Shown: piece after piece, positions 2,218-14,147 of the stretch
Position numbering within the stretch: position 1 is the stretch's first letter
Layout: each line of letters begins with the position of its first letter
DNA from: Halosimplex litoreum
GTDB taxonomy: Archaea > Halobacteriota > Halobacteria > Halobacteriales > Haloarculaceae
Direction of reading: 5' to 3'
DNA length: 64,000 bases
NCBI RefSeq assembly: GCF_016065055.1
Contig: NZ_CP065856.1
Span: forward strand, 3,905,836-3,969,835
Translations under genes and position numbers: made by a program
Notes under the pieces: generated by a model
The model's input: the letters and a program-made list of their open reading frames with translations, nothing else
Database searches by the model: none
Told to the model about the DNA's origin: nothing

Positions 2218-3243
2218 TCAGAGGAGTCGATAGACGTGCTCGGAGTACATCTGGCGAACGCGGTCGCCCCAGTCGTGGGTGTAGGTATCGATGACGTCCT
2301 GGGCGACGTCGCCCCGGAGGTACTTGACGATCCCGCGGTCGCCGGTGCGGTCGCGGAGATGCGTCGTGAAGAAGTGGCGGAAGTAGTGGGGTGTGACGTT
2401 CTCCTCGGCGCCGCCGCCGTCTCGATACCACCCCTGGTCGCGTGCGTGGTTCTCGACGATGTGGTGGACCATGTCCGGGGTGAGGCGTTTGCCCCACTCG
2501 TCGGTCGTGCTCACGAACAGGGGATCCGCCTCCGACCGCGGATCCGGTCGCACGGCCAGCCACTCGACGAGCACAGAGGCGAGCTCGTCGTCGACGGGGA
2601 TCGTCGTCGCTCGCTTGCGTTTGTTCGACGCCGTCCGCCGCTGGCCGTTGTACTCCTCGCCCGCGCTCGGCGCGTCGTCGACGTAGATCGAATCGGGCTT
2701 GCCGTCCAGTTGCGGGCGATGGTCCCACTCGAACGGCGCCTCGGTCAGCGACAGGTCTCGTCTGTCGAGGTTACACAGTTCACCGGCCCGCACGCCCGTC
2801 TTCAGCAGTGTCATCACGACGGCTCTGTCCAGCGGATGGGTCACGTCGCCCACGAACGACCGCATCGCGGGGACCGTGATGTCGCGCCGCTCGGGGTCGA
2901 CGTTGATCGACTCGTCGATCTCCTCCAGAACGAGCGCCATCGGATTCTCCTCGAAGGCCCCGACCTCGGTCATGTACCCGTAGAAGCGGTGGAGATAGGA
3001 GGCGTACGTGGCGACCGTGCTCTCGCCGACCGACCCGCGTAGCTGGTGGATCCAGGCCATGCAGTCCCGGTGGTTCGCCTCGTCGAGCCCGAGGGTACGC
3101 TCGGTCAGATACGCCTCGAACTCCCGCAGGACGCGCTCGTAAGCGTCTCTCGTCCGCCGGCTCTTGCCCTGGAACGTGATGTCGTCGAGGAAGTACGCGA
3201 CAGGGTCCTCGGTGTCGGCCGACCCGCGTTCGACCTCACTCAT
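2218..3243 (-). CDS. Tyrosine recombinase (XerC/D-like integrase)
   Basis: 341 residues. An N-terminal SAM-like core-binding domain (about 15-100) is followed by a catalytic domain. Visible catalytic elements are R152 in KTGVRAGELCNL, basic residues about 208-210 in NKRKRATTIPV, H286-x-x-R289 in TPHYFRHFF, and the candidate nucleophile Y321 in VIDTYTHDW. The usual LGH box is replaced by YLRGD, so the second conserved His position is not obvious. It overlaps the upstream gene by 8 bp and is probably translated with it. No other phage genes are nearby, so a resident recombinase is as likely as an element integrase. Confidence 0.88.
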   Translation of the reverse strand: MSEVERGSADTEDPVAYFLDDITFQGKSRRTRDAYERVLREFEAYLTERTLGLDEANHRDCMAWIHQLRGSVGESTVATYASYLHRFYGYMTEVGAFEENPMALVLEEIDESINVDPERRDITVPAMRSFVGDVTHPLDRAVVMTLLKTGVRAGELCNLDRRDLSLTEAPFEWDHRPQLDGKPDSIYVDDAPSAGEEYNGQRRTASNKRKRATTIPVDDELASVLVEWLAVRPDPRSEADPLFVSTTDEWGKRLTPDMVHHIVENHARDQGWYRDGGGAEENVTPHYFRHFFTTHLRDRTGDRGIVKYLRGDVAQDVIDTYTHDWGDRVRQMYSEHVYRLL

Positions 3244-3667
3244 CGATAGTGTACCCGCCGTTGCGCCCGCTGTAGGTGATCTGTCCCTCGGCCTGGAGCC
3301 GCTGGAGGGCGTCTTCTAGCCCCGCTTCGATGTCGTCGGTCACCGCCTCGAGCAGCTGGTCCCACGACAGGTAGTCGTCCGAACGCAACGCGTCGACCAC
3401 CCTGTCTTCGAGGTCCGAGCCCTCGGAGTCGGCGCCCGAAGAAGCCCCGTTGGCGTCCGAGTCTGCGCTCACCTCGGTCCCGTCGGAACCGTCAGAACCC
3501 GTTGTTTCACCGCCGAAGCCCCGCCGACCTGCCTGGACCATCGTCCGCACGAACTCGCTGCGACTCATCCCGAGCGCCTCGGCGTGTTCGTCCCACTCCT
3601 CGCGTTGGTAGGCCGGGACGTACGTCCGCACCGCCGTCCGAGAGGTGTCTACGTCGGACTCTGCCAT
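3236..3667 (-). CDS. Small protein coupled to recombinase (DUF5805-like)
   Basis: 143 residues. The N-terminal third (TAVRTYVPAYQREEWDEHAE, then LGMSRSEFVRTMVQAGRRGF) looks like a ribbon-helix-helix or short DNA-binding module. A Gly/Ser/Asp-rich linker (about 53-85) follows, and the C-terminus (LEDRVVDALRSDDYLSWDQLLEAVTDDIEAGLEDALQ split over that span) resembles a small winged helix ending in GQITYSGRNGGYTIDE. From memory this is the haloarchaeal DUF5805 family found upstream of tyrosine recombinases. Its stop overlaps the recombinase start. A GAGGA Shine-Dalgarno-like run precedes the ATG. A role as recombinase partner or regulator is inferred. Confidence 0.75.
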   Translation of the reverse strand: MAESDVDTSRTAVRTYVPAYQREEWDEHAEALGMSRSEFVRTMVQAGRRGFGGETTGSDGSDGTEVSADSDANGASSGADSEGSDLEDRVVDALRSDDYLSWDQLLEAVTDDIEAGLEDALQRLQAEGQITYSGRNGGYTIDE

Positions 3668-4071
3668 CGAATCCTCACTGTACTGCCACCAGTATCAATC
3701 TACCGCTACGTTCACTGATAAACGAGCTATTTTGCCGAATCTTCCGGAGAGCGACGGGTTCGTACACGTTCTCTCGATGAACCGAAGACGCCCACTCACA
3801 AATAACCGTACGCAGCGGACACGGCAGTCCGTGGGGTCGCTTCCACCCTCGGTCGGTGGACCGACGTGCTGGTCACTTCGGTACGAATTCGAATCGATAT
3901 CGTACGGGGAATTCGAGAGATAGTTGACGTATCGTTGTCTTTCGCTTCCCCGTCCGGACCCTGCGGGTCGATAATGTCGCGATTACAATGGTCAGACACG
4001 CCGATAGTGCTACTGCGTATGTTCAGAAACTCGAACCACGGAGCTCGATCTTCCGAGGAGGTACTGTAGGG
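3668..4071. other. 404-bp divergent intergenic region
   Basis: It separates the recombinase pair from the small membrane-protein gene. Nothing in it shows haloarchaeal codon bias. A short stretch around 3890-3925 is rich in self-complementary EcoRI-like and ClaI-like hexamers but forms no long palindrome. I see no confident TATA box for the rightward gene. Confidence 0.5.
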
Positions 4072-4293
4072 ATGGTTTCCCAGGCGGAGAAGTGGTGGGA
4101 AGCGATCGGCGTCAGTGGCGCGATCATCCTGGGGTTGGTGCTGTTTTTCTTCCCCGAACCAGCGACGTCCGTGCTGGGAGTGATAATCATCGTGGCCGCT
4201 GCGTTCGTCTGGTTGGCAGTCGACATCAGACAGGAGCGGAGACACGAATCGGAGTTGCTGCGTGAGTCCTCGGCCGAGGAAGCGACCGACTGA
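4072..4293 (+). CDS. Small two-helix membrane protein
   Basis: 73 residues from the ATG at 4072, chosen because GGAGGT lies about 10 nt upstream and because the protein becomes coherent there; the open frame extends to 3988 without support. Two hydrophobic segments (about 13-30 and 35-52: AIILGLVLFFFPEP and VLGVIIIVAAAFVWLAV) are followed by a charged cytoplasmic tail rich in Glu and Arg. No function is recognisable. It stands alone and is followed by a stem-loop. Confidence 0.7.
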   Translation: MVSQAEKWWEAIGVSGAIILGLVLFFFPEPATSVLGVIIIVAAAFVWLAVDIRQERRHESELLRESSAEEATD

Positions 4294-4301
4294 TCGACGC
4301 G

Positions 4302-4320
4302 CACTGTCCCTTTCACAGTG
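4302..4320 (+). terminator. Stem-loop after small membrane-protein gene
   Basis: CACTGT and ACAGTG are separated by CCCTTTC, starting 8 bp after the stop at 4293. The stem is short and has no strong T-tract after it, so termination is only a guess. Confidence 0.3.
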
Positions 4321-4684
4321 ATCGAGCGAGAGACTCCGGTTGCCCCCTCCGACGGCGCTTGGTCGTGGGGCCCGTATCGCCCCGACTCCCCCTCGAGGTC
4401 GATGCTCACGTCCTCTATTCGGGACTGTGGATGCTACCTTGTGTATATCGACATGCGATGTACAGCGTACGACGTTCGAGACTGGGTCAGGCGCCTCGAT
4501 AGATGTAAAGTCCGGTCCGAAAAGCTATCCCACCCAGGAAGCGGTACCACCTTGCAACGGGTCGCCTGCGGCCGTAGAATGGAAGATTCCGTTCGGGAGG
4601 TCACACACGTGGGTCTGAGAACCGTAAGTGACTCGTCCCGACGGCTATCGCCGCTGTGTCGGTGGCGAACTTCCGCCGTTGTTC

Positions 4685-4715
4685 ATCGAATCGAGTTTCC
4701 ACCGAAAGATTCGAT
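4685..4715. repeat. Inverted repeat ATCGAATC/GATTCGAT
   Basis: Two perfect 8-bp arms (4685-4692 and 4708-4715) are separated by 15 bp within the gene-free region. No function can be assigned. Confidence 0.45.
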
Positions 4716-4828
4716 CTCCACGGGAGCGTCGAATCCCGTTCCGACAGCACTGCGAAATTTTTCACTCCGGACACCTTCGTCCGACAGGTTGCTACCAGTA
4801 CGTCCAGCGACGAGTCGCCGGCTTCGAA

Positions 4829-4847
4829 GCGCAGTGATACACTGCGC
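4829..4847. repeat. Tight hairpin, 8-bp stem and 3-nt loop
   Basis: GCGCAGTG-ATA-CACTGCGC is a perfect compact hairpin inside the gene-free region. It could end or belong to a non-coding RNA; no poly-T follows. Confidence 0.5.
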
Positions 4848-5187
4848 CACGAGCGCTCCGAATTGACAATCAGTACGTGATTCCGCCACCTCCGATAGTC
4901 GACTCCCTGACTGCGACCGGACGATGGCCGCCGGGGGTGGTGCGCCGTGACCGGTGCTACCCCTCTCGGCGAAAGGCCGTTCGACGGCTCACGTTCACGC
5001 AACCCCTGGGGGTAGCGCATGCGAGAACGCCCTCCCTCGCGGCACCCGCCAAATTTCGAGCGTTAGGGCCGAGAGCGGCGGATCTCGCACACGAAGCTGA
5101 TCCACACTCGCGAGGACTTGGTTCGAACGCTGTTAGCCTTCGCGGACTGCCCTACTACTAAGAGTTGTGATAGTAATTTCAGGCCGA

Positions 5188-5202
5188 CAAATTCCGAATT
5201 TG
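5188..5202. repeat. Inverted repeat CAAATT-CCG-AATTTG
   Basis: A perfect 6-bp inverted repeat with a 3-bp centre in the AT-richer patch of the gene-free region. It is compatible with a dimeric regulator site. Confidence 0.35.
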
Positions 5203-5289
5203 CGGCGATCATCCTCGCCCTCGAATCAGACACCGAATCACCGGAGAATTCCAAGTCGTGATCACATACTCCCGGATAAAGACCCTTAT

Positions 5290-5309
5290 TTGTGAGTGAC
5301 GGCTCACAA
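5290..5309. repeat. Inverted repeat TTGTGAG-N6-CTCACAA
   Basis: Perfect 7-bp arms spaced by 6 bp, in the form of an operator for a dimeric regulator. No gene start is visible close by, so the target is unknown. Confidence 0.45.
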
Positions 5310-5327
5310 TAGCGAGGAACTTCGTAC

Positions 5328-5384
5328 TTTTAGTTGTGTATCTCGTCGAACAACGTCGTGAGTTATACACAGATACAACTAAAA
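5328..5384. repeat. Long imperfect inverted repeat, 57 bp in all
   Basis: The left arm TTTTAGTTGT-gt-ATCT (5328-5343) mirrors the right arm AGAT-ACAACTAAAA (5371-5384), with one 2-nt bulge. A competing inner pairing, GTGTAT (5336-5341) with ATACAC (5365-5370), is also possible. The form resembles a miniature-element end pair, a strong RNA hairpin or a recombination site. It sits in the most AT-rich part of the gene-free region. Confidence 0.5.
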
Positions 5385-6954
5385 ATTGTTAATCGAGACC
5401 CAGACGGTTCGAGCTGCTCTCGGGGTGAGACGGTGCTACCGACGATCGGTCGAACGGCCCTCCACCCCTATCATTTCAGTGACTAGACAGGGCGGTCCGT
5501 GGAGCGAGGCTCGTACCGGTCAGTGACCGACTCACGGGCGCCGACGTCTCGGCTCCGAAGATCGATACCTTCTGGGCCCCGACGATCGCTCGGCGGGGAT
5601 GCGACCACACTCGCCCAGATCGTCGACCCACTCGGTCGGCGATGAGACGACGACGGATCGTGACCGACCGAACGGCCCGAAACCCTACTCGGTGGTGAGT
5701 CCGTCGGGTCCGGCGGCCCCGACCGACCCTACACTCCCGTCGGACGGTGCGACCGCGGAGCGGAGGCGGCGGAACTCGGCGGCTGGCCGCTACCTGTCCA
5801 CGGCGAGGGAATTCGCCGTTCAGGACAACCGTGAACCGATAGTCCCGGTGCTCCGGACCGACGGAACACGGTACTCTGGGCACAGCCGAATAGTACCGGC
5901 CGTGACGCCTGCCGCAGACGAACTCCGTCGACCCTGCTGTCGACGAACGCAGGGGCCGGGATACTCCCACGTGGCAGTGCACGAGACATTCTCTGGTGGG
6001 TGTTCCTCGAGTCTGACCTGTTAACTCCTCACGGGACTGCCCTGTACCACCGGATATCGTCGAGAGACTGCAGAGAGGTGGTGGTGGCTGGGAGTTCCGT
6101 AACGAGGCACGGGTCGGCCGGTCGATGCCCGGATCCGCCTCGCCCGACTCGGGAGCGGTCGCACCAACCGGGAGCGAACCGCTCTCCGCCGGGAGGGGTC
6201 CGTCGGGGCCCCCGACGCCTCACGACAAGGCGAACTACGTGACGCCTCGATCGAAGACCGGCAGCTACCGGGCGCGAGTACGACCTCTGACTTCGATCGT
6301 TCGTCGGGTTCCGGAAGTCGGTGCCTGGCGTCGACCGGTCCCCGGCGTCCGAGTGAACGAACGCAGCTGAACCCTCTGCGGCCGTGGCGTACTCGTCGAA
6401 CACCGTGCCCGGTGGGCCGACCGCGAGTCCGACTCGGTCGCTCCTCCGACGAGACCGAACTCTGCGAGTCCCGACGAAGTGGTCGGGATTGGGTCGAGCC
6501 GACACCGACCACAGATGGCGCTTAGACGCCGCTCTGTCCCCGCTCGCAGCCACTTTCCGTCCGAACGGGGCGTTATGTGTTTCTCGGCCCGTCTACGCAG
6601 CAGCGACTCTGGGCGACGGTGTGTGCGCCCCCGCTCGACCCCTACGCAGTGTCGCCGTGGTCCGGGTCCGCGGACGCATCGAGCCTCGAGACGGGCGTTC
6701 CTCGAGCGAGTCGCCCCGTCCGAGTCGACGGGGAAATTCGACGACACGGGTGGCGTTCGAATAAACATTCAGTCTCACCTATCAGAACTCGGTGTTCGAC
6801 GTGCTACCGGTAAACTACATGCTGCTATACGAAGTTCGACGGCCCCGCTCGAAACCGGTGACGAAACGACGCGCGAACGGGCCGCCGAAGCGGGAGCCGA
6901 CAGCTCACGCTCGGGAACCGGTAGACTGAGGCGGCGGTGGACCGAGGGCGTGGT

Positions 6955-7371
6955 ATGGACGAGCGGCTGCTTCGAGCGACGGCGAGCATCAGGGGCGCGG
7001 TCTGCTCTCCGGCAGGCACGACACTGACGATCCGCCGCGCCAGCGACGACGGATGGGAACTCCCAGGCGGCCGGATCAGAGAGGGCGAAGCCGTGACCGA
7101 CTGCCTCCGTCGGGAGCTCACTGAGGAGGTCGCTATCGACGCGACCGTACGCGAACCGGTCCACGCGCACGCGTGGCGAAACGACGACGGCGACGACCGG
7201 CTGGCAGTCTACTATCACTGCAGTGCCGTCGAGATGGAGCCGCTACTGAGCGACGAACACACCGAGGCCGAGTGGGTCAGCGAGGCGGTAGCCCGCGAGC
7301 GGCTCTCGGCGCCGCAGACGACCGCCGTCGCGAGAGCGATACGCGCCGATCGCCGCGAACGGACGGAGTGA
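6955..7371 (+). CDS. Nudix hydrolase
   Basis: 138 residues from the ATG at 6955; a GTG 18 nt upstream is an alternative. The Nudix box runs through GGRIREGEAV and RRELTEEVAI and fits G-x5-E-x7-R-E-U-x-E-E, except that the final conserved Gly is Ala. The WELPGGR lead-in and the C-terminal strand (EAEWVSEAVARERL) are standard for small MutT-like Nudix proteins. It is expected to hydrolyse a nucleoside-diphosphate-linked compound in the cytoplasm; the substrate is not predictable. It stands alone at the edge of the gene-free region. Confidence 0.85.
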   Translation: MDERLLRATASIRGAVCSPAGTTLTIRRASDDGWELPGGRIREGEAVTDCLRRELTEEVAIDATVREPVHAHAWRNDDGDDRLAVYYHCSAVEMEPLLSDEHTEAEWVSEAVARERLSAPQTTAVARAIRADRRERTE

Positions 7372-11291: not shown

Positions 11292-12764
11292 TCAGGCCGA
11301 CGCGATCCGATAGACGACGCCGTCGGTCTGCGAGAGCGGATCCTCCGCCAGCGCCGCGCGCGTCCCGAGGACGTAGCTGTCGCCGTCGGCCACACCCAGC
11401 GAGAGGACCTGGATGTCCAGCCGGTCGCGGTCGGCGAACTGAATCTCCTGGACCGGCCACTGTCCCGACCCGGAGGGGTCGGCGGCGAGCAATCGACCGG
11501 CCGGCTCCTCGAAGGAACTCGTGAAGGCGCCGAACAGATACGAGTCGGCGACGGCCGACACCGACCCGGTGTGGACGTGGCCGCCGATGACGGCGAACCC
11601 GACCGCCCGGTCGTCGGCGAAGTGCGGGAACTCCAGCACCGGGTCGACCAGCGCCTCGCCGCGCTCGGACTCGTCGACGCAGCCCTCGTCGCTGCTGGTC
11701 CCCGTCTGGGGGTCGTGGCAGTGCAGCCCCTCCCGCAACGGCCAGCCGTAGTTGGCGCCGCGTTCGATAACGTTCACCTCCTCCCACTCGGCCTGACCGA
11801 CGTCACCGACGATCAGTCGGTCGCCGCTGAAGGCCATCTTCCAGGGGTTGCGCAGTCCCCACGCGTAGTACTCGTCTCGACCCTCCGCCCCGACGAGCGG
11901 GTTGTCCTGGGGGATCCCGTACGGTCGTTCGCCGCCGTCGAGGTCCTCGCCCCGTCCCACCGGCAGTGCGTCGGGCGAGCCGCCGTCCACGTCGATCCGG
12001 AAGATCCCGCCCTTGAGCTCGCCCGTGATGTCTTGGCCGTTGAACGGATTGAGTCCGTCCCCGAGCGCCCCGTAGAGGTAACCGTCCAGCCCGAACTCGA
12101 TCGTCCCCGCCTGGTGGATCGGGCGGGCCCAGGGCAGGTCCATCAGGACCCGCTCGGTGCCGGGGTCGACGCGTTCACCGTCGTCGTCGGCGGTGAACTC
12201 CGAGAGCCGCTCGCGGTGGTCGAGCTCCTCGTCGTCGCTCGGGGCGCTGTAGCGGACGTACAGTCGACGGTTCTCCGCGAACGCGGGGTGGAAGGCGATC
12301 CCCAGCAGGCCCCGCTCGTCGTAGGAGACCCAGTTCGGCAGCCCCTCGCCGACCGCGACCAGCCGGTCGGTCAGGTCGAGGAACGGCTCTGCTCGCAGGT
12401 CGTCGCCTTCTATGACGTGGACCGTCCCGACCTGGTCGAGGACGAACCGCCTGTCGGTCCCGTCGTCGGCGGTCACGAGCGCGCTGGGCGAGACCAGTCC
12501 CGTCGCGACTTCCTCCAGTCGCACGGTCGGTCCCGGTTCGAAGTACGGCTCCGGCGCGTCGGTCGCCGGCACGTCCGTCGCCGGTGCGTCGGGTGGCGCG
12601 GTTCCATCCGGTGTCTCGGTGTCGTCCCCGCTCCCACCGCTTCGGCCAGCGAGCGAACAGCCAGCGAGGGCGCCGGCGACACCCGTCACCGCGATAGTCC
12701 GCAGCAGAGACCGCCGTGTTCGGCTTCCGACCTCGTCGTCCACCGGCACGTCTCGTGAATCCAT
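11292..12764 (-). CDS. Exported PQQ-dependent sugar dehydrogenase-like lipoprotein
   Basis: 490 residues. The N-terminus carries twin arginines (TRRSLLRT) and a lipobox LAGC, so Tat export with lipid anchoring is expected. An Asp/Thr-rich linker follows, then a six-bladed glucose/sorbosone dehydrogenase propeller with DRRFVLDQVG, IAFHPAFAENRRLYV, GLRNPWKMAF and GANYGWPLREG. The family oxidises sugars or aldoses extracellularly using PQQ or acts as a binding protein. The gene is monocistronic and convergent with the flippase gene (25 bp apart). Whether PQQ is made in this organism is unknown. Confidence 0.85.
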   Translation of the reverse strand: MDSRDVPVDDEVGSRTRRSLLRTIAVTGVAGALAGCSLAGRSGGSGDDTETPDGTAPPDAPATDVPATDAPEPYFEPGPTVRLEEVATGLVSPSALVTADDGTDRRFVLDQVGTVHVIEGDDLRAEPFLDLTDRLVAVGEGLPNWVSYDERGLLGIAFHPAFAENRRLYVRYSAPSDDEELDHRERLSEFTADDDGERVDPGTERVLMDLPWARPIHQAGTIEFGLDGYLYGALGDGLNPFNGQDITGELKGGIFRIDVDGGSPDALPVGRGEDLDGGERPYGIPQDNPLVGAEGRDEYYAWGLRNPWKMAFSGDRLIVGDVGQAEWEEVNVIERGANYGWPLREGLHCHDPQTGTSSDEGCVDESERGEALVDPVLEFPHFADDRAVGFAVIGGHVHTGSVSAVADSYLFGAFTSSFEEPAGRLLAADPSGSGQWPVQEIQFADRDRLDIQVLSLGVADGDSYVLGTRAALAEDPLSQTDGVVYRIASA

Positions 12765-12784
12765 ACTGTCCTGACGCAGTACGT

Positions 12785-12793
12785 AGATATAAC
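12785..12793 (-). promoter_or_regulatory. TATA box of the sugar dehydrogenase gene
   Basis: GGTTATATC (minus strand) is centred about 25 nt before the ATG at 12764, predicting a leaderless mRNA. Confidence 0.55.
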
Positions 12794-12923
12794 CGTTGCC
12801 AGCGGACAGCCGCGAGACACCCCGAGAGACCCGTTCGCCCCTGGATCGTGATCGATAGGTCGGAGATCGGTCGGATCGGCGTCGTATCCGGTTCTGTGCG
12901 TGACACTGTCGGGATAGGCAAAG

Positions 12924-12930
12924 CTATACT
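12924..12930 (+). promoter_or_regulatory. TATA box of the nucleotidyltransferase-glmS operon
   Basis: CTATACT is followed by an expected start near 12954 and a leader of about 27 nt containing GGAGG at 12970-12974 before the ATG at 12981. This operon therefore uses a Shine-Dalgarno leader, unlike most neighbours. Confidence 0.5.
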
Positions 12931-12980
12931 CCAGTCAGTCGTACCGTATACATGGATTGTGACGCGGATGGAGGCCGGAT

Positions 12981-14147
12981 ATGCGAACAGTGATACTCGC
13001 AGCGGGGCGGGGCGGTCGGCTCGGTCCGCTGACGGAGCTGCGACCGAAACCGATGCTCCCGGTGGCCAACCGGCCGATCCTCGAATCGGTCGTCGAGACC
13101 GCCATCGAGGCCGGGACCGACGAGATCGTTCTCGTGGTCGGCTACCGCCGGGACCGCATCCAGGACCACTTCGGCGACGGCGACGACTGGGGCGTACCGG
13201 TCCGCTACGTCGTCCAGGAGCACCAGCTCGGCGCCGCACACGCGCTCTCGCTCGCCGAATCGGCCGTCGACGGACCGTTCCTCGCGCTGCACGGCGACCG
13301 CCCGGTCGACGGGGACCTGCTCGCGCGTTTGACCGACCGCTACGAGGCGAGCGGCCGGCCGACCGTCGCGGCCGCGCGCTCGCGGCGACCCACGGAGTAC
13401 GGCGCGGTCGAACTCGACGGCGAGGCGGTCGTCGGCGTCTCCGCCGAGCCGACCGCCGACCCACCGTTCCTCGTCAACGCCGGGGCCTACGTCTTCGACG
13501 AGCGCGTGTTCGACGCGGTCGAGGCGTCCGACTCGGACACTCGGGGCGACCTCGACCTCGGGATGGCGACGGCGCTGCAGTCGCTCGCCGACGACGGCCT
13601 GCTGACGGCGGTGGTCCACGGCGGCTCGTGGCAAGACGTGACCTACCCCTGGGACCTGTTGTCGGCCAACGCCGCGCGGCTCCGGGACGGCGGGAGTACC
13701 GACGTTCCCGACGGTGTCCACGAGACGGCCGCGGTGTCCGGCGACGCGGCGCTGGCGGAGACCGTCTCGGTCGGCTCGCACGTGTCGGTCCTGCCGGGGA
13801 CGGCGCTCGGCCGGAACGTCCGCGTCGGCTCGAACGTCACCCTCTCGAACTGTATCGTGCTCCCAGGTGCGGAGATCGGGCACGGGGCGGTCCTCTCGGA
13901 CTGCGTCGTCGGCGAATCAGCCTCCGTCGGACCGAACGTCACCGTCGAGGGGGGCGACGCCGACGTGGTCGTCGACGGGCGCGTCCACGAGGACGTGCGA
14001 CTGGGCGGCGTGCTCGGCGACCGCGCGACGCTCCGGGGTAACGTGACCGTCCGCCCGGGGACGACCGTCGGCTGTGACGTGCGGGCGGACGCGGGGACGG
14101 TCCTCGACGGTCGGATCGACTCGCGAGAGACGGTGCGGAGGGGATAA
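12981..14147 (+). CDS. Sugar-phosphate nucleotidyltransferase, GlmU-like
   Basis: 388 residues. The N-terminal nucleotidyltransferase domain (1-230) has LAAGRGGRLGPLT and RPKPMLPVANRP, LHGDRPVDGD and NAGAYVFD. The C-terminal part (about 250-385) is a left-handed beta-helix of hexapeptide repeats (VSVGSHVSVLPG, NVRVGSNVTLSN) as in GlmU-type enzymes. The usual EKP before NAG-YVF reads AEP here. Pairing 2 bp upstream of glmS suggests UDP-GlcNAc synthesis, but a glucose-1-phosphate thymidylyl- or uridylyltransferase is possible. Confidence 0.82.
   Translation: MRTVILAAGRGGRLGPLTELRPKPMLPVANRPILESVVETAIEAGTDEIVLVVGYRRDRIQDHFGDGDDWGVPVRYVVQEHQLGAAHALSLAESAVDGPFLALHGDRPVDGDLLARLTDRYEASGRPTVAAARSRRPTEYGAVELDGEAVVGVSAEPTADPPFLVNAGAYVFDERVFDAVEASDSDTRGDLDLGMATALQSLADDGLLTAVVHGGSWQDVTYPWDLLSANAARLRDGGSTDVPDGVHETAAVSGDAALAETVSVGSHVSVLPGTALGRNVRVGSNVTLSNCIVLPGAEIGHGAVLSDCVVGESASVGPNVTVEGGDADVVVDGRVHEDVRLGGVLGDRATLRGNVTVRPGTTVGCDVRADAGTVLDGRIDSRETVRRG

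Follow-up and report, generated by a model that had tools for sequence, protein, structure and literature searches.

Why should a gene-dense archaeal chromosome contain more than two kilobases without a credible gene? The question is raised by a 64,000-nucleotide stretch (the window; positions 3,905,836 to 3,969,835 of contig NZ_CP065856.1) of the 4,158,049-base chromosome of Halosimplex litoreum, in which positions 4294–6954 had been singled out for lacking one. The AT-rich centre of this gap is quite probably a dif site, part of a haloarchaeal module that resolves chromosomes by means of Xer, to judge from sequence comparisons: a 28-bp site at 5269–5296, which a decayed insert now separates from its recombinase operon.

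That the gap holds no credible gene is borne out. Its open reading frames (ORFs) are only mechanical; twelve were scanned against Pfam, two at E≤0.1 and ten at E≤1, and no family was found. ARAGORN returned 0 genes for the whole window. Rfam likewise gave 0 matches there at gathering scores, which is the outcome of the covariance-model check for RNA families that had been proposed.

The gap consists of two parts: a drifting stretch (about 5400–6930) and a conserved one (4910–5299, plus a palindromic stretch to about 5390). The block at 4910–5299 is 78–82% identical in five of the seven other Halosimplex genomes searched. Its match in H. aquaticum (G001) is divided in two, with 79% identity across 204 nt and 68% across 114 nt; one genome (G006) has short motif matches only, to the conserved part, and another (G007) has none. 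The AT-richer, palindromic centre described in the original prediction is confirmed, with a GC fraction of 0.536 at 5001–5500 versus 0.64–0.75 in windows starting at 5501 or later, together with inverted repeats, and it falls in the conserved part. The feature kept across genera, which coincides with this centre, is the 28-mer CTCCCGGATAA-AGACCC-TTATTTGTGAG (5269–5296): two 11-bp arms around a 6-bp spacer.

A recombinase operon and its 28-bp site

Left of the gap lies a two-gene operon read leftwards. Its distal gene (2218–3243, minus strand) encodes a 341-residue Xer-type tyrosine recombinase, in which both the SAM-like domain (PF02899, E 4.5e-10) and the catalytic domain (PF00589, E 3.8e-15) score above their cut-offs. 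In the Protein Data Bank (PDB), E. coli XerD (1a0p, E 7.1e-11) alone matches at E≤1e-10, and the R, K, HxxR, and Y of the catalytic motif are visible by eye. The proximal gene (3236–3667, minus strand), upstream of and overlapping xer, encodes an RHH-DUF5805 protein (PF19121, E 1.1e-27), whose RHH_1 match is weak and below its cut-off. A search of the open literature found no paper on DUF5805. An orthologue of this Xer is present in all 292 genomes searched in the class, each at least 90% complete, representing 76 of 76 genera. It is usually single copy (ten rows of the 292-genome listing show two or three matches), and the RHH-DUF5805 gene precedes it in all 60 loci sampled.

Most genomes share one arrangement: accessory half-sites; the 28-bp site (11-6-11); a promoter-like motif; the RHH-DUF5805 gene; and xer. 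In the window, the conserved motif TAGATTGATA (3693–3702, minus strand), presumably a promoter element, lies between the ancestral place of the site and the RHH gene.

The arrangement was derived from a first set that joined the window and five further Halosimplex loci to 53 xer loci of named genomes; three of the 53 (L054, L074, and L082) were left out because the RHH gene went undetected, giving 56 rows. (Three Halosimplex species occur twice, as L009/L077, L011/L030, and L013/L032; none of these duplicates entered the 35-site training set described below, and the split test, with its 15 rows, includes just a single member of each pair.) Candidate sites were picked by a required TAA/TTA beside the spacer, with one TTA variant admitted, and then ranked by symmetry. 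The site lies 26–45 nt before the RHH start in 35 of the 56 rows. Outer arm bases differ between lineages, and yet the two arms of a site resemble each other: 6.97 of 11 positions match, versus 5.97 ± 0.22 for re-paired arms, and 0 of 2000 shuffles reached the observed value. Because these sites had also been ranked by symmetry, the comparison was repeated on 51 non-training sites chosen by the score model alone. Over their outer eight bases the match is 3.80 versus 3.20 ± 0.17 (again 0 of 2000 shuffles). Such matching within sites is what would be expected if one protein binds both arms.

A second sample comprised the region upstream of xer in 60 genomes from across the families of the class, a few of them also in the first set. 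The model had been trained on 35 sites, and in 56 of the 60 loci the best 28-mer is outside this training set. Forty-eight of those 56 carry a site scoring at least 16, in either orientation, 10–60 nt before the RHH start; the best scores in 300 resampled control sequences have a mean of 7.4, a 95th percentile of 11.8, and a maximum of 19.1.

The site is also nearly unique in the 11 genomes searched by pattern: eight contain a single exact copy, and in three the closest copy has one or two mismatches. Each of these copies either lies at the xer locus or terminates an insert adjoining it. A second, less similar site lies beside xer in H. aquaticum and G006, and three genomes (G002, G003, and Halovenus rubra, G099) each have one match with three mismatches elsewhere. 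(A further genome, G347, has its standard locus along with a second dif-like site, L161 152–179, and a second relative of the small protein described below, on another contig.)

Accessory half-sites have modest support. In the window they take the form of inverted half-site-like repeats, TTAGTTGTGTA ... TTAGTTGTATC on the minus strand, at 5330–5382. A half-site-like arm lies 65–67 nt upstream of the site in nine of 34 standard loci; best scores average 8.4 versus 6.1 after shuffling. Near the module a different palindrome, CCCC(A/T)GGGG, is enriched, with 10 copies in the 44.4 kb lying up to 400 nt upstream of RHH, seven of them 230–266 nt upstream of RHH, versus 16 in 1.17 Mb elsewhere in the same loci. 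The window copy, at 5003–5011, comes just before the small ORF of the insert.

Where on the chromosome does the module lie? As a presumed marker of oriC1 we took the Orc1 gene scoring 109–120 bits in a PF09079 search, present once in nearly every genome; its placement less than 6 kb from base 1 in 12 records favors this choice. From 52 chromosomes, three were set aside beforehand: G210, with Orc1 on another contig, and G256 and G357, each with two Orc1 genes of near-equal score (xer at 0.447/0.308 and 0.455/0.346 of the circle). In the remaining 49, of which 17 have rounded chromosome lengths and 16 come from genomes of two or three contigs, xer lies 0.30–0.50 of the circle from Orc1 (mean 0.449), at 0.40 or more in 46 and below 0.25 in none. 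The loci divide 26 to 23 between the two sides of the antipode, and the mean over 27 genera is 0.441. In the window's own genome the distance is 0.465, or 167 degrees. The control gene purA has a mean of 0.310 in 33 single-contig genomes; it reaches 0.40 in eight of them, versus 30 of the same 33 for xer. By distance from this marker, the locus appears to lie in the terminus region.

The site, its class-wide linkage to xer, its position, its near-uniqueness, and its splitting (below), all read from sequence, suggest a model in which Xer binding, strand exchange, and dimer resolution are predicted steps. Monomers of Xer would occupy the two arms, and pairing of two such sites within a chromosome dimer would be followed by exchange of strands at the ends of the spacer, which would convert dimers or multimers to monomers. 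The promoter region of the RHH-DUF5805 gene lies next to the site, and the protein may regulate the operon or the reaction, perhaps by coupling expression or direction to site occupancy.

A split site and its inserts

In the window the full site is displaced. At its ancestral place beside the RHH gene stands the half-site TTATCAGTGAA (3711–3721, minus strand), with arm 2 kept and arm 1 lost, and between this half-site and the full site lies an insert of about 1.55 kb (3722–5268, left border inferred) with a GC fraction of 0.59. Displacement is not peculiar to this genome: in Halosimplex and some others, the full site lies 0.2–3 kb from the RHH gene. Fifteen rows have a displaced or missing site. 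Arm 2 is kept at the standard place in 12 of them (p<0.05 each), and arm 1 scores below zero there in all 15. Arm 2 beside RHH and the full site beyond the insert place the insert within the spacer, the position that site-specific integration would give it.

We propose that foreign DNA lands here on account of the site's tendency to recombine. The same Xer reaction would integrate elements that carry one matching arm, and the 1.55-kb insert would have split the window site at its spacer in this way, leaving arm 2 by the RHH gene and the full site at the far end. The insert, small ORF included, would since have decayed. Two earlier guesses about the gap, a control locus and a decayed mobile element, gain support from the dif-like site and from the decayed insert at it, respectively.

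Other inserts are varied. Seven in other loci measure 0.3–2.9 kb with GC fractions of 0.51–0.63, and one contains a long ORF that is ammonium transporter-like by eye. In Halovenus rubra about 17 kb, including a CRISPR array, separates xer from its displaced site. (The array, at L096 10745–13597, has 30 repeats at about 65-nt spacing within 11406–13342 alone.)

The window insert has several recognizable parts. A short block at 4437–4483 (plus strand) is matched at the insert in four other Halosimplex genomes, by pieces starting at 4437–4444 and ending at 4474–4596. The conserved block (4910–5299) ends in the dif-like site itself. Near the other end, at 3793–3805 (plus strand), is an inverted copy of the outer arm, an exact 13-bp match to 5286–5298; the 13-mer has two matches in the window with at most one mismatch versus 0.01 expected, for a motif chosen after it had been seen. 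An ORF with a hydrophobic segment (3988–4293, plus strand), of uncertain gene status, also lies within the insert. Because it has no Pfam match above the curated cut-off, the gene-poor stretch begins before 4294; the extent first given for the gap also took in one recognizable broken ORF (see below). Positions 4126–4178, inside the 3988–4293 frame, have similar counterparts at other locations in four more Halosimplex genomes and may represent a small membrane-protein family.

Inverted extra sites occur about 126–156 nt upstream of RHH in three Halosimplex genomes, the window having one arm only; the other two are at L013 8055–8082 and, 156 nt upstream, in L031. Inversion of a segment between inverted sites could result. 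The 13-bp inverted repeat, together with the block's reversed orientation in H. aquaticum, had pointed to a simple phase-variable inverton. That reading was rejected: inversion is kept only as a possible past event, since G002–G005 have no second copy.

The broken small ORF runs from an ATG at 5019 to a stop at 5259–5261 (plus strand), is interrupted by an in-frame TAG at 5064–5066, and leaves seven bases between its end and the site. Disruptions are present in G003, G004, and G005 too; in H. aquaticum the frame is open from an ATG. Changes by codon position (206, 192, 315) give mild support for coding. Relatives with 36–40% identity end 28 nt before the site in two Halovenus species; a genome of another family has weaker ones at distances of about 120 nt and 1.3 kb from sites; and one, in G103 (L093 7735–9186), immediately precedes a phage-type integrase gene of the same strand. 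The small protein has no Pfam or PHROG match of weight. A three-sequence AlphaFold model is poor (pLDDT 69.7, pTM 0.42) and has no PDB match at E≤0.001. A profile of the small protein matched only four of 292 class genomes, so it belongs to the inserts and not to the module. Conceivably, and with low confidence, it is a recombination helper that inserts carry.

A larger element occupies the locus in H. aquaticum. There a 17-bp direct repeat, consisting of spacer plus arm, recurs 10.9 kb apart (L013 8065 to L014 2995) and encloses a betapleolipovirus-like provirus, with a replication protein matched in PHROGs at E 2.8e-236 and a spike 38.9% identical to VP3 of HHPV3. The window's conserved block lies between these repeats, in opposite orientation. 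Element borders thus correspond to the dif spacer plus one arm, as in the 12 of 15 split rows that keep arm 2 only and in the 17-bp repeats. Related spike and ATPase genes link the H. aquaticum element to betapleolipovirus proviruses such as SNJ2 and HHPV4. HHPV4 differs in having its own annotated integrase; among the nine H. aquaticum provirus proteins scanned against PHROGs no integrase was recognized, and the element has a dif-like site as its target. In SNJ2, small helper proteins have been described next to the integrase (sections of PMC8371274).

A pleolipovirus origin of the window insert is not established, no viral gene having been recognized in it. The small protein has no match at E≤1 among phage records and no relative encoded on the viral contigs, and the exact 21-mer of the site has no viral match. 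HHPV3 has no site at threshold, and HHPV4 reaches scores of 12.1–17.4 only. A looser site pattern matched two viral contigs, in both cases within a coding gene of a phage-like contig at a GC fraction of 0.38–0.42, and these matches are put down to chance.

To the right of the site, the stretch at about 5400–6930 is spacer, as judged from the ORF scans and from an alignment to one relative, H. carlsbadense. Identity in 200-bp bins across 5501–6900 is 57–69%, and 24 of the 28 gap runs in 5550–6936 are not multiples of three; on the missing Pfam families and these frame-breaking gaps, coding is rejected. The gap ends at a NUDIX gene (6937–7371, plus strand; PF00293, E 9.2e-16), whose bins at 6901–7300 are 86–90% identical with zero gaps. 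The suggestion that a lack of conservation would make the whole region spacer holds for this unconstrained part and fails for the conserved 4910–5390.

Competing explanations

Several observations weigh against a chromosomal dif site. The position test marks oriC1 by Orc1 score, while haloarchaea have several origins. The invariance of TAA/TTA is partly built in, because it was used for selecting the first-set sites, and the arm covariation tests ignore kinship in both sets. Eight of the 56 second-sample loci fall short: two lie just under the score (L138, 15.4; L141, 15.2), four have displaced sites (L099, L104, L130, and L142), and two (L120 and L148) have no good site. Six of the 12 split rows are Halosimplex and probably reflect one ancestral event. 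Accessory half-sites are modestly above chance, with seven of 34 exceeding the 95th percentile of controls. The second catalytic His/Trp position looks, by eye, like Asp in the window Xer. Haloferax volcanii remains viable after deletion of four XerC-like genes (sections of PMC7776575), one of which may be the orthologue of this Xer. Finally, since the site overlaps the promoter region of the operon, some of its conservation may be regulatory.

This last point leads to the idea that the 28-mer is only an operator or promoter of the RHH–xer operon, bound by the RHH-DUF5805 protein, with inserts arriving by chance or through another integrase. RHH proteins often bind inverted repeats, and the 26–45 nt between site and RHH start in the standard arrangement would suit an operator. 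The idea is nonetheless unlikely: an operator would not explain why the split falls at the spacer in 12 of the 15 displaced rows or why spacer-plus-arm direct repeats flank a provirus, nor would it need a place opposite oriC1 that is kept across 27 genera, unlike that of purA. Mobile DNA at the site in several genomes, and the small-protein relative directly upstream of a phage-type integrase gene in G103, could instead mean that an ancient integrated element used the site for attachment, with this Xer as its integrase and no part in chromosome resolution. Core chromosomal function is a better fit to an Xer found in 292 of 292 genomes, usually in single copy, at an antipodal position, and most standard loci contain no element; we regard the attachment-site explanation as improbable, slightly more so than an operator.

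The long non-coding RNA once suggested for the gap fares worst. A structured RNA encoded by the block at 4910–5299 would account for its best conserved stretch, 4980–5119 (0.77–0.93 of six sequences per 20-nt bin), and for the scant codon periodicity (111, 105, 128) of the part before the small ORF. It is hard to reconcile with the empty Rfam search, with a consensus fold of six Halosimplex sequences whose covariation term is unfavorable (+4.45; three of 85 pairs compensatory), or with protein-level relatives at the same place in other genera, and is very improbable. The dif site of an Xer module is the reading we retain.

Known relatives and wider meaning

Archaeal XerA/dif systems have been described for Thermococcales and Sulfolobales (sections of PMC2958812), and XerA for Thermoplasma (PMC8371274). 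As parts of these two papers present them, they share with the haloarchaeal module a single chromosomal tyrosine recombinase, a 28-bp site with 11-bp arms and a 6-bp spacer, and a place for the site in the terminus half of the chromosome (PMC2958812, PMC8371274). In Thermococcales, according to sections of PMC2958812, dif lies away from xerA, whereas the haloarchaeal site is directly upstream of an xer operon with an RHH-DUF5805 partner.

In its linkage the module resembles bacterial systems: XerS/difSL of streptococci and XerH/difH of Helicobacter and Campylobacter likewise combine a single recombinase of similar size with a site adjoining its gene (PMC5357621, in part). Correspondingly, the haloarchaeal site is immediately next to the two-gene operon in 48 of 56 loci, and is displaced by the insert in the window. 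Bacterial difSL spans 31 bp, of which 11 form its central region, as given in sections of PMC5357621, and the haloarchaeal site is not filed as difSL because it has 28 bp and a 6-bp spacer. Those sections mention no RHH-DUF5805 gene with XerS or XerH; the haloarchaeal module has one. Integrative mobile elements exploiting Xer (IMEX), among them the CTX and TLC phages of Vibrio and the gonococcal island, offer a further likeness, an element at a dif-like site with arm and spacer shared (PMC5357621, in part). The elements considered here are archaeal and range from small, varied inserts, some of which encode the small protein, to a betapleolipovirus-like provirus.

Many haloarchaeal XerC/D homologues have been taken to suggest “the possibility of Dif sites” (PMC7776575, in part), and the literature searched, subscription papers lying outside it, reports no haloarchaeal dif. 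What appears to be new is a linked, class-wide archaeal dif module, of which the window holds a split, displaced copy.

One recombinase and one 28-bp site can now be named for a whole class, with a chromosomal position that fits the terminus. With both named, the question of dif and the terminus in polyploid, multi-origin haloarchaea becomes a direct genetic test.

A wider proposal is more tentative, and we hold it a little short of probable: that a self-contained terminus module (dif, RHH-DUF5805, and xer within about 1.6 kb) resolves polyploid chromosomes throughout the class, and that mobile elements, including integrase-less betapleolipoviruses, integrate via the host Xer and a small helper protein. 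The occurrence of the small protein in only four of 292 genomes lowers its likelihood. If the proposal is true, inverted extra copies of the site would allow segments to flip, and mobile elements would share the archaeal terminus for docking, in the way that the CTX phage of Vibrio uses dif. It would also offer an integration route for pleolipoviruses without an integrase, a possibility left standing in sections of a 2023 survey of these viruses (PMC10599561).

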